From an uncultured Bacteroidota bacterium (GTDB lineage Bacteria > Bacteroidota > Bacteroidia > B-17B0 > Aurantibacillaceae), in contig CALMMX010000079.1 in NCBI GenBank assembly GCA_937868545.1, positions 1-64,000 on the forward strand: a stretch of 64,000 bases of DNA. The letters are read 5' to 3'. Below are positions 1,768-31,242 of this stretch, in pieces (the stretch's first letter is position 1; each line of letters begins with the position of its first letter). Below the pieces are notes generated by a model. The model ran no database searches, was not told the DNA's origin, and saw only the letters and a list, made by a program, of their open reading frames with translations. Both the position numbers and the translations under genes were made by a program.

Positions 1768-1832
1768 AAAAAAAAGATGTTTTTTGATTAATTGTTTGAT
1801 AAACAGTTAATTACTAAATGTCTTTTTTTTTT
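1768..1832 (+). terminator. Possible terminator between the membrane protein gene and acpP
   Basis: An inner stem of 11 pairs with one G-T pair (1787-1797 with 1801-1811, loop GAT) lies inside an outer A-run/T-run pairing (1768-1777 with 1821-1830), and a run of ten T ends it. It would stop transcription arriving from 1397-1705. The T run overlaps the upstream element of the acpP promoter. Confidence 0.45.
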
Positions 1833-1859
1833 GTTTTTTAATTCATACAACTATCTTTG
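1830..1859 (+). promoter_or_regulatory. Promoter of acpP-fabF-rnc
   Basis: TTTG at 1830-1833, an 18-base spacer and TATCTTTG at 1852-1859 match the Bacteroidetes primary promoter consensus, 25 bases before the acpP start codon. Confidence 0.7.
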
Positions 1860-1884
1860 TCCCGAATTTAAAAACTAAAACACA

Positions 1885-2124
1885 ATGTCAGACATTTCAT
1901 CAAAAGTAAAATCTATCATCGTAGATAAATTAGGTGTAGAAGAAAAAGAAGTAACTCCAACAGCAAGTTTCACTAATGATTTAGGTGCTGATTCTTTGGA
2001 TACAGTAGAATTAATTATGGAATTTGAAAAAGAATTCAATATTGCTATTCCAGATGATCAAGCTGAGAAAATTGCTACAGTAGGTGATGCAATTTCTTAT
2101 ATTGAAGCAAACGCTAAAAACTAA
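1885..2124 (+). CDS. acpP: Acyl carrier protein of primary fatty acid synthesis
   Basis: This 79-residue acidic protein carries growing acyl chains on a 4'-phosphopantetheine arm during type II fatty acid synthesis. The attachment serine is Ser37 in the motif [10 protein letters not shown], and length and helix pattern are typical of AcpP. It is directly followed by fabF (22-base gap) and rnc, an order common in Bacteroidota, and has a clear promoter at 1830-1859. A second, more divergent ACP lies at 54615 in the polyene-like cluster; this one is the housekeeping copy judging by neighbours. Confidence 0.96.
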
Positions 2125-2146
2125 GATCTAACTTAAACATTTTTTT

Positions 2147-3400
2147 ATGCAATTTAAGCGCGTAGTAGTTACGGGACTTGGTGCTGTTACCCCTTTGGGA
2201 AGCACTGTTGACGATTATTGGAATAATTTAATAAACGGCGTAAGTGGTGCTGCAACTATTAAGCGCTTTGATGCATCAAAATTTAAAACAAAATTTGCCT
2301 GTGAGGTAAAAGGCTTTAAGCTTGAGGACTATTTTGATAGAAAAGAAGCTCAACGTTTAGACGCGTTTTCTCATTACGGTATTGCAGCTTCTGTGCAAGC
2401 TGTAAAAGATTCGGGTATTGATGCTGAAGGAATTGATAAAAATGAAATTGGTGTTATTTGGGGTTCTGGTATTGGAGGTTTAGATACTTTTCAAACAGAA
2501 ACTTTTAACTTTGCCAAAGGTGATGGTACTCCTCGATTTAATCCTTTCTTTATCCCTAAAATGATTGCCGATATATGTTCAGGACATATTTCTATTCGTT
2601 TTGGATTTAGAGGGCCTAATTTCACAACTGTTTCTGCCTGCGCTTCTTCAACTACAGCTTTAATTGATGCTTTTACCTACATACGTTTAGGTAGAGCAAA
2701 TGCAATTATTACTGGTGGTTCTGAAGCAGCAATTAATGAAAGTGGAATTGGCGGGTTTAACGCATGCCAAGCAATGAGTTTAAATAATGATAGTCCTGAA
2801 ACAGCATCTCGCCCATATGACAAAACCCGTGATGGTTTTGTATTAGGTGAAGGTGGTGCTGCATTAGTGCTTGAAGAATTAGACCATGCCCTAGCACGTG
2901 GCGCAAAAATTTATGCCGAAATTATTGGTGGTGGAATGAGTGGTGATGCATATCATATTACTGCTCCACACCCAGAAGGATTAGGCGCAACATTAGTAAT
3001 GAATAGAGCATTAAAAGATGCAAATATTTCTCCTAATGAAATTGATTACATTAATACACATGGCACAAGTACTCCACTTGGTGATGGCGCTGAATTGAAA
3101 GCTATTACAAATGTATTTGGCGAACAAGCTTATAAAATGAACATTAGTTCAACAAAATCTATGACAGGTCACTTATTAGGTGCTGCAGGTGCTGTTGAAG
3201 CTATTGCAACTGTTTTAGCTGTTAAAAATGATATTGTACCTCCTACAATTAATCATGTGTATGCTGACCCAGAAATTGATCCAAAATTAAATCTAACGTT
3301 TAATAAAGCGCAACAAAGAACTATTAATGTTGCTATTAGTAATACGTTTGGTTTTGGTGGACACAATGCTGCGGTTGTGGTAAAAAAATACAAAGCTTAA
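2147..3400 (+). CDS. fabF: 3-oxoacyl-ACP synthase II
   Basis: FabF condenses malonyl-ACP with acyl-ACP in chain elongation. The 417-residue protein has the complete thiolase-fold ketosynthase active site: Cys165 in TVSACASST, His305 in NTHGTSTPLGD, Lys337 in SSTKSMTGH and His342, and the C-terminal SNTFGFGGHNA loop. Full length, no anomalies. It lies between acpP and rnc and is presumably co-transcribed with both; rnc starts 7 bases after its stop. Confidence 0.96.
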   Translation: MQFKRVVVTGLGAVTPLGSTVDDYWNNLINGVSGAATIKRFDASKFKTKFACEVKGFKLEDYFDRKEAQRLDAFSHYGIAASVQAVKDSGIDAEGIDKNEIGVIWGSGIGGLDTFQTETFNFAKGDGTPRFNPFFIPKMIADICSGHISIRFGFRGPNFTTVSACASSTTALIDAFTYIRLGRANAIITGGSEAAINESGIGGFNACQAMSLNNDSPETASRPYDKTRDGFVLGEGGAALVLEELDHALARGAKIYAEIIGGGMSGDAYHITAPHPEGLGATLVMNRALKDANISPNEIDYINTHGTSTPLGDGAELKAITNVFGEQAYKMNISSTKSMTGHLLGAAGAVEAIATVLAVKNDIVPPTINHVYADPEIDPKLNLTFNKAQQRTINVAISNTFGFGGHNAAVVVKKYKA

Positions 3401-29675: not shown

Positions 29676-29751
29676 ATTTTGTTTAAGATTATTCGTAATT
29701 CATTAAACAAAACGTAATTTTGTTTAACGTTTTATTAAAAACATTAAACAA
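29676..29751. promoter_or_regulatory. Two identically spaced dyads upstream of the ECF sigma gene
   Basis: TTGTTTAA (29679-29686), 16 bases, TTAAACAA (29703-29710); then again TTGTTTAA (29720-29727), 16 bases, TTAAACAA (29744-29751). The two units are exactly 41 bases apart. The shared flanks extend to ATTTTGTTTAA and CATTAAACAA, while the 14-base centres differ at most positions. The second unit overlaps the -7 element and ends one base before the start codon, so it is well placed as an operator or a transcript hairpin. Confidence 0.6.
29715..29722 (+). promoter_or_regulatory. -7 element of the ECF sigma gene
   Basis: TAATTTTG is an exact TAnnTTTG match 30 bases before the start codon at 29753. 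It overlaps the left arm of the second dyad. No TTTG lies at the usual distance upstream. Confidence 0.5.
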
Positions 29752-29752
29752 T

Positions 29753-30259
29753 ATGACAGCAATAGAATTTAATACTCGACTTACAAACGAAAAACAATCT
29801 TTAAAAAACTTTGCATTAAGTTTAACACATAATACCGATGACGCCTTGGATTTACTGCAAGACACATTTGTTAAGGCCATTACTTACAGAGATAAATTTG
29901 AAGACAGCACAAACTTTAGAGCATGGTTATTTACCATCATGAAAAACACTTTTATTAACTCTTATCGCAGAGCTGTAAAAACAAAACAAATAATGCAAAC
30001 AAATGCAGATATTGCAATGGCTCGAGCTTGGAAAAACAATTACCAAGATGTTACAGAATCGAGATTAGCTGCTAAAGACATTTACAATAAAATTGAAAAG
30101 CTAGAAGACCAATACAAAATTCCATTTACAAGATATTACAATGGTTATAAATATGAGGAAATAGCACATGAAATGCAATTACCTTTAGGTACAATAAAAA
30201 GTCGTATTTTTTTAGCAAGAAAAATTTTAATGAATAGCATTCAAAAAAGTAAAAACTAA
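29753..30259 (+). CDS. ECF-type RNA polymerase sigma factor
   Basis: The 168-residue protein has sigma region 2 (about 14-85, with ALDLLQDTFVKAI and FRAWLFTIMKNTFINSYRR) and region 4 (about 110-163, with FTRYYNGYKYEEIAHEM and LPLGTIKSRIFLARKIL), and no region 3, so it is an extracytoplasmic-function sigma factor. The start at 29753 is preferred over an in-frame upstream codon at 29720 because the upstream one lies in the -7 element. No anti-sigma gene adjoins it; an outer membrane protein gene follows. The duplicated dyads upstream suggest strict regulation, perhaps autoregulation. Confidence 0.9.
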   Translation: MTAIEFNTRLTNEKQSLKNFALSLTHNTDDALDLLQDTFVKAITYRDKFEDSTNFRAWLFTIMKNTFINSYRRAVKTKQIMQTNADIAMARAWKNNYQDVTESRLAAKDIYNKIEKLEDQYKIPFTRYYNGYKYEEIAHEMQLPLGTIKSRIFLARKILMNSIQKSKN

Positions 30260-30297: not shown

Positions 30298-31242
30298 ATG
30301 CGGATTTTTAAACACCTTTTTTTTAGTTTACTTATTTTGGGCTTTGCTTACAGTGGTTTTTCTCAAGATAATAATAACGAAGAAGACACTTTAAAACCAA
30401 TAGTAAATTACAACAATCATAAAGGTTTTAATTTAGGTTTTTACATTGGCTCCTTTTGGGCAAATAAACAAACTGCTAGTTTATATGATGGTTATGGCTT
30501 TGATCAAAATGGCCAACAAAATAATTTTGCAAATAGTTTGCTTTTATACCAAATAAATTATGTTGGTGGACGATTTGGAGGAAACGATTTAATTGCACAG
30601 TTACTTAATGTTGATACAAAAGATTGGGACTTTACCGAAAAAGATATGCCAATTAATATGAGGTATATAACCACTTATTTAGTTGGCTTAAATACTCAAT
30701 ATAAAATAAATAAAAAGTCGAGTTTCTCATTAAACATTAATGGAACAAAATTAAAAGCAACCGGCAAATTTACCATCACTACTAAAATACCAACTGGCTC
30801 TGGGTTATTACAGGCACCTAATACAGCTTTTACCATTAATGGCGAAGAGCAACGTTTAATGTTTCAATTTGGATATAAGCGCTATTTTGGAAAAAACGAA
30901 AAAATAAATTTTTTACTAGAAGGAGGCATAAATATTATTTTATCTAAAGCGCAAAAAAACCAAGTAATAATGCACAGCGATTTAAATAATGGGCAAAACG
31001 ATATTTATATAGATTTAATGAATCTTTACCAGCAACCACCTTACAATTTTTATTCGGCAAGGTATTTAGTAGGAGCTGGAATAGGCTTTTTTGCTGGAGC
31101 TGGTATAAATTTCAATATCAATCCAAAATACTCCTTACAATTTTTATATAATCCATCTTATGATAGAATTGCCTTAGGCTATTTCCCTAAATTTAAAATG
31201 CAACATGGCTGCGGTTTGCGAGTTTATTACAACATGAACTAA
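30298..31242 (+). CDS. Outer membrane beta-barrel protein, function unknown
   Basis: The 314-residue protein has a signal peptide (about 1-22, ending in GFSQ) and then alternating amphipathic strands with aromatic residues, such as GFNLGFYIGSFWAN, YLVGLNTQYKINKKSSFSLN-like and GAGIGFFAGAGINFNIN, ending in GLRVYYNMN, as expected of an outer membrane barrel. No family name can be given. It starts 38 bases after the ECF sigma gene and overlaps the stop of convergent corA by 4 bases; its own -7 element abuts the start codon. Confidence 0.75.
   Translation: MRIFKHLFFSLLILGFAYSGFSQDNNNEEDTLKPIVNYNNHKGFNLGFYIGSFWANKQTASLYDGYGFDQNGQQNNFANSLLLYQINYVGGRFGGNDLIAQLLNVDTKDWDFTEKDMPINMRYITTYLVGLNTQYKINKKSSFSLNINGTKLKATGKFTITTKIPTGSGLLQAPNTAFTINGEEQRLMFQFGYKRYFGKNEKINFLLEGGINIILSKAQKNQVIMHSDLNNGQNDIYIDLMNLYQQPPYNFYSARYLVGAGIGFFAGAGINFNINPKYSLQFLYNPSYDRIALGYFPKFKMQHGCGLRVYYNMN

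Follow-up and report, generated by a model that had tools for sequence, protein, structure and literature searches.

The operators of CarH proteins, whose homologs are defined by two signature motifs, are composed of three to four tandem 11-bp direct repeats, nAnnTnnACAn (PMC8156234), and in Thermus thermophilus and Bacillus megaterium such an operator lies across the promoter of carotenoid genes that are induced by light. In Streptomyces coelicolor, the B12-based MerR photoreceptor LitR controls an ECF sigma factor, LitS, that transcribes crt genes (PMC5401885, PMC12705666). The CarA/CarH operator at PB of Myxococcus xanthus is a large, promoter-overlapping site to which two dimers bind cooperatively (PMC8156234), and the ECF sigma factor CarQ of this organism is under the anti-sigma factor CarR. 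A looser parallel is class II LitR of Pseudomonas (PmlR2/PplR), with paired inverted TGTACA-N12-TGTACA sites and a regulon including phrB, folE and cryB (PMC9758184). Within Bacteroidota, light-induced carotenoids and pigmentation have been described in Chryseobacterium lacus, where the mechanism was called unknown by the authors (PMC7064467).

The locus studied here lies in a 64,000-nucleotide stretch of an uncultured Bacteroidota bacterium (assembly GCA_937868545.1, contig CALMMX010000079.1, positions 1 to 64,000; hereafter the window). It resembles LitR-LitS in combining a CarH/LitR-type MerR, an ECF sigma factor presumably under its control and carotenoid genes downstream, whereas the phylum, the Bacteroidota-type promoter and the operator of paired, wide inverted repeats are different, and the sigma factor is likened to LitS at the level of the ECF family only. 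In contrast to CarH operators, the arms TTGTTTAA and TTAAACAA are inverted, 24 bp apart and duplicated at 41–44 or 63–65 bp; the TnnACA core of CarH operators is present in the TTAAACAA arm, but tandem 11-bp nAnnTnnACAn repeats were not found, and none of the 64 dyads that we aligned as inverted arms 24 bp apart had ACA repeated at 11 bp. The PB operator of M. xanthus differs in being about 55 bp long at the −35 region of a crt operon, and, unlike for CarQ, no anti-sigma gene adjoins the sigma gene here. The paired inverted sites and the folE/phrB regulon of Pseudomonas class II LitR recall the folE/photolyase dyads described below, whereas that protein is without a complete B12 domain, acts together with a short LOV protein and uses another half-site and spacing. 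The features on which the analysis is based are as follows.

29679–29710, no strand: dyad 1, TTGTTTAA-N16-TTAAACAA, exact match with 0 mismatches, upstream half of the operator
29692–29695, plus strand: weak −33-like element TTCG, from the sequence and from relatives compared with shuffles
29715–29722, plus strand: −7 element TAATTTTG (consensus TAnnTTTG), from the sequence, with a register shared by 28 of 38 related promoters
29720–29751, no strand: dyad 2, TTGTTTAA-N16-TTAAACAA, exact match with 0 mismatches, register conserved in orthologs
29753–30259, plus strand: ECF sigma factor gene, 168 aa, regions 2 and 4 (Pfam Sigma70_r2 and Sigma70_r4_2; NCBIfam sigma70-ECF over the cut-off)
Contig C141 of the window genome (G000), 1778–2656, minus strand: merR, single copy in this genome, with MerR_1 and B12-binding domains and the Wx9EH and ExH motifs

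An earlier note, made from the window alone, had described two operator-like dyads 41 bases apart, the second on the −7 element and ending one base from the start codon. Both exact copies were found, 41 bp apart from start to start, and the last base of the right arm of dyad 2 is 29751, so that only T29752 separates it from the ATG at 29753. That note had also given conserved arms and variable centres of 14 bases; the arms and centres behave as it said, but the gap is 16 bases. From the base composition, 0.0005 exact dyads would be expected per 64 kb and 0.03 per 3.85-Mb assembly. The genome-wide motif search that it had proposed returned, from the whole 3.85 Mb of this draft genome (83% complete, 384 contigs), two exact dyads, namely those at the sigma gene. 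A degenerate genome-wide scan (up to 3 mismatches) gave only noise (410 matches versus 447 in the reversed control), with no excess over shuffled or reversed controls in either the window or the assembly, so we limited evidential weight to exact and phylogenetically conserved dyads. Two dyads with one mismatch, on contigs C38 and C99, were rejected as lying inside coding sequence.

The sigma gene itself encodes an ECF sigma factor with regions 2 and 4 only (PF04542, PF08281 and TIGR02937, all above cut-off). It had been noted to lack an anti-sigma partner, and its neighbours are indeed lysS (upstream, on the other strand) and, downstream, a gene for a 314-aa protein (30298–31242) that has a signal-peptide-like start and no Pfam hit; no anti-sigma gene is adjacent to it, and relatives have merR and crt genes there instead. 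A gene similar to that for the 314-aa protein also follows sigma in relatives of the same genus (L086, L087, L088). The suggestion of the earlier note that regulation acts at the promoter and replaces an anti-sigma partner would hold across the class.

The Bacteroidota −7 consensus is TAnnTTTG. Since the −7 element spans 29715–29722, its last three bases are those with which dyad 2 begins, i.e. TTG is common to the end of the −7 element and the start of the left arm, which bears out the overlap claimed before and sets it at three bases. The TTCG lies 19 bp before the −7 element, within the centre of dyad 1. The arrangement thus matches a primary-sigma promoter of Bacteroidota (−33 TTG and −7 TAnnTTTG, about 19 bp apart), except that the −33 of the window is one base off; the −33 TTG is also missing in several genus relatives of the window genome. 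Of the 38 promoters with two dyads (the ortholog loci and named genomes added to them), 28 have TAnnTTTG at a fixed register with the left arm of the start-proximal dyad, and TTG was found 18–21 bp upstream of TAnnTTTG in 17 of the 29 promoters that have this element (about 60%; 300 shuffles: mean 1.8, largest 6). Start-to-start spacing of the dyads in the 38 promoters was 41–44 bp at 24 loci and 63–65 bp at 11, with three exceptions, corresponding to about four or six helical turns. At 41–44 bp the −33 element is inside the centre of dyad 1, and at 63–65 bp the core promoter is located between the dyads. Because the dyads overlap or flank the core promoter in this manner, a dyad-bound protein and polymerase would compete for the same bases.

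Of 60 relatives, 33 have a detected ortholog of the sigma protein, and 24 of the 30 ortholog loci taken had at least two dyads (up to 2 mismatches) upstream of sigma; two of the loci without a dyad pair are cut by contig ends. Exact dyads occurred in 32 of the 60 relatives versus one reversed-control site in the same genomes, and paired dyads at sigma orthologs extend over many families of Bacteroidia. Alignment of the dyads showed that the arms are near invariant and the centres variable yet A/T-rich at symmetric positions. Absence of the motif from the sigma promoters of relatives had been named as what would speak against protein-binding sites; the motif is present there, and the operator-like character proposed for it fits arms that are kept and centres that vary across the class. 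Judged by this conservation, the dyads are a real and widely conserved operator. In Solitalea longa (L163:3900–4000), three dyads precede sigma at −97, −54 and −33 with spacings of 43 and 21 bp, which suggests a grid of about 21 bp. At eight Pedobacter loci (L168, L170, L173, L174, L178, L179, L187, L188), sigma homologs are found near a crtI-like gene with neither a dyad nor merR at the locus, and carotenoid control seems to be wired differently there.

As a candidate binding protein, we considered the MerR. In 296 genomes drawn evenly across the phylum, MerR was present in 63 and the dyad in 37, all 37 dyad genomes having MerR and none of the 233 MerR-less genomes having the dyad (Fisher P = 1.9e-30, a value that ignores relatedness among genomes). 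The pattern recurs in many families and includes the sole dyad genome outside the class (G283), which has MerR, while G258, in a genus where most members have both, has neither. The exact dyad is missing from 26 of the 63 MerR-positive genomes, so the site is degenerate or of another kind in these. Among the relatives, MerR was found in 33 of 33 sigma-bearing and 31 of 32 dyad-bearing genomes; the dyad of the MerR-less relative (G029) was discounted, being inside a coding ORF. Three MerR-positive genomes in which the sigma ortholog was not found (G028, G030, G033) have dyads at merR and crtI, and since these dyads are kept without a detected sigma ortholog, the dyad appears to follow MerR and not sigma. 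The genes are also adjacent: merR is directly upstream of sigma, with dyads between and crtI-crtB after, in G040 and G050, the order is merR-dyads-sigma-crtB in G026 and merR-dyad-sigma-crtI-crtB in G048, and the arrangement of G040 and G050 recurs at loci of Crocinitomicaceae, Algoriphagus and Marivirga. In at least 15 of the phylum genomes, a dyad lies less than 200 bp from merR. In the window genome, merR and sigma are on different contigs, and no dyad accompanies merR.

The MerR proteins of dyad loci consist of MerR_1 and B12-binding domains, and their best PDB match by sequence is CarH of Thermus. In the copy of the window genome, the N-terminal MerR DNA-binding domain is clear (PF13411 MerR_1, 2.1e-14), and of the C-terminal cobalamin-binding domain (four-helix bundle and Rossmann fold) PF02607 was above and PF02310 below cut-off. 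W140, E150 and H151 of the Wx9EH motif (adenosyl cap) and E187 and H189 of the B12-binding E/DxHxxG motif (lower axial His) are invariant in 16 homologs including that of the window genome, which reads ELHELG at the latter motif; the final G is not invariant across homologs. An AlphaFold model of a MerR homolog other than the window genome's own copy (mean pLDDT 88.6) gave full-length TtCarH chains as all of its twelve best PDB matches (5c8d/5c8e, E to 5.7e-16), with an rmsd of about 2.9 between the cobalamin-binding domains. The proteins are therefore alike to CarH of T. thermophilus and B. megaterium in domain layout, Wx9EH and ExH motifs and predicted fold, whereas the His next to the Trp of TtCarH is not conserved in these homologs. 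By domains, motifs and predicted fold, this MerR is a CarH/LitR-type B12 photoreceptor. Divergent Bacteroidales homologs at L166:752–1651 and L192:933–1829, beside sigma homologs without dyads, lack the His of Wx9EH; these are possibly B12-independent, CarA-like versions with another operator.

Other genes with dyads point to a light regulon that would include carotenoid, photolyase and rhodopsin genes. In relatives, exact dyads were found before the MerR gene (L063, L069, L071), before crtI-crtB (L068, L069, L071), before folE divergent from photolyase or SRPBCC genes (L064, L070, L078), before a fasciclin gene (L082) and before genes for DUF4397 proteins with a secretion tail (L061, L065, L076, L083). 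In the window genome, a divergent crtI-crtI' region on contig C152, where crtB is downstream of crtI, has a dyad with one arm mismatch and an N17 gap; the DUF4397 targets of relatives are absent from this genome, and its photolyase gene, near a contig start, has no dyad in view. This photolyase-like gene (G000:C223:482–1765; L140) carries one in-frame TGA relative to a homolog, owing to decay or an assembly error. A single exact dyad upstream of DUF4397 proteins with a Por secretion tail recurs across genera (L061, L065, L072, L076, L077, L083), and in some of them the dyad is followed by a common GTGTTT...TATAAC stretch that may be an ECF promoter. At L075:2438–5396 of relative G008, an exact dyad is followed by a bacteriorhodopsin-like gene and then a fused lycopene cyclase/carotene dioxygenase gene, which suggests that the regulon of the dyad genes extends to rhodopsin and to the synthesis of retinal.

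The observed sites, their conservation and overlap with the promoter, the co-occurrence and adjacency of dyad and merR, the photoreceptor motifs and the predicted fold are the basis on which we infer binding, direction of regulation, light response and the targets of the sigma factor. Very probably, a CarH/LitR-type MerR in its dark state sits on both dyads and blocks the sigma promoter, and light releases the repressor. In the dark, an oligomer loaded with adenosyl-B12 would occupy the four half-sites of the two dyads on the same helix face and block the primary-sigma promoter, which has its −33 within the central part of dyad 1 and its −7 partly on dyad 2. Light would split the cobalt-carbon bond, upon which the oligomer would fall apart and leave the DNA; the ECF sigma factor would then be made and switch on light-protection genes, while those bearing dyads of their own (in relatives, crtI-crtB, folE/photolyase and rhodopsin) would be released directly. 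Against this reading stand the direct-repeat layout of known CarH operators, the separate, dyad-less merR of the window genome, the MerR-positive phylum genomes without an exact dyad and the draft state of the window genome. The operator reading of the earlier note is thus supported and extended by a probable binder, a B12 photoreceptor of the CarH/LitR type.

The main rival, because Streptomyces LitR is reported to promote litS transcription in light (PMC12705666), is light activation by the same MerR, which on the dyads would mainly aid polymerase at a promoter with a weak −33. The window's TTCG in place of TTTG and the genus relatives without TTG there are in keeping with it. We nevertheless consider it unlikely: dyad 2 shares bases of the −7 element and spans the presumed start site, which is the position of a repressor, the majority of related TAnnTTTG promoters do have TTG at −33 spacing, and photolysed CarH proteins lose DNA binding (PMC8156234). 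Streptomyces LitR is described both as a dark repressor and as an activator of litS in light (PMC12705666), so control in Bacteroidota could have the opposite sign.

It is improbable that a regulator other than this MerR binds the dyads or that they reflect autoregulation by sigma. The MerR-positive phylum genomes without an exact dyad speak for such a reading; however, the dyad is confined to MerR-bearing genomes, it is kept in MerR-positive genomes without a sigma ortholog, and its layout is unlike −35/−10 recognition by a sigma factor. Least probable of all, with hardly any weight in our judgement, is that the inverted repeats are mRNA hairpins for translational control or attenuation. The last arm is at the start codon, and folding of the 101-nt stretch is a little more favourable than that of its shuffles (z = −2.8), a modest signal; this reading was rejected on anatomy, as dyad 1, being upstream of the −7 element, is not expected to be transcribed, one dyad can serve two divergent promoters (folE and photolyase/SRPBCC), arms nearly invariant in sequence with varying centres are those of a protein site, and no Rfam family matched.

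A literature text search, with subscription journals largely outside its coverage, found no paper on the half-site sequence or on a CarH operator of Bacteroidota, and the novelty of the operator is provisional. On balance, we lean towards the view that much of Bacteroidia uses a B12 photoreceptor with an operator unlike those described for CarH, in which inverted half-sites 24 bp apart form pairs that flank or overlap the core promoter with a phasing of four or six helical turns, and that it controls a dedicated ECF sigma factor without an anti-sigma factor and, directly, carotenoid, photolyase/folE, rhodopsin-retinal and adhesin-like genes. If this view is true, the photoreceptor oligomer would have to place its DNA-binding domains in another arrangement than the Thermus tetramer does. 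A structural question is also how inverted repeats so far apart are bound by a protein of the CarH type; the sharply defined dyad is a ready gel-shift probe. The locus would show how light, acting at the promoter, can take the place of an anti-sigma factor in governing an ECF sigma factor, and, with the site confined to genomes that have one photoreceptor family, the light regulon of a large environmental group would be readable from sequence.
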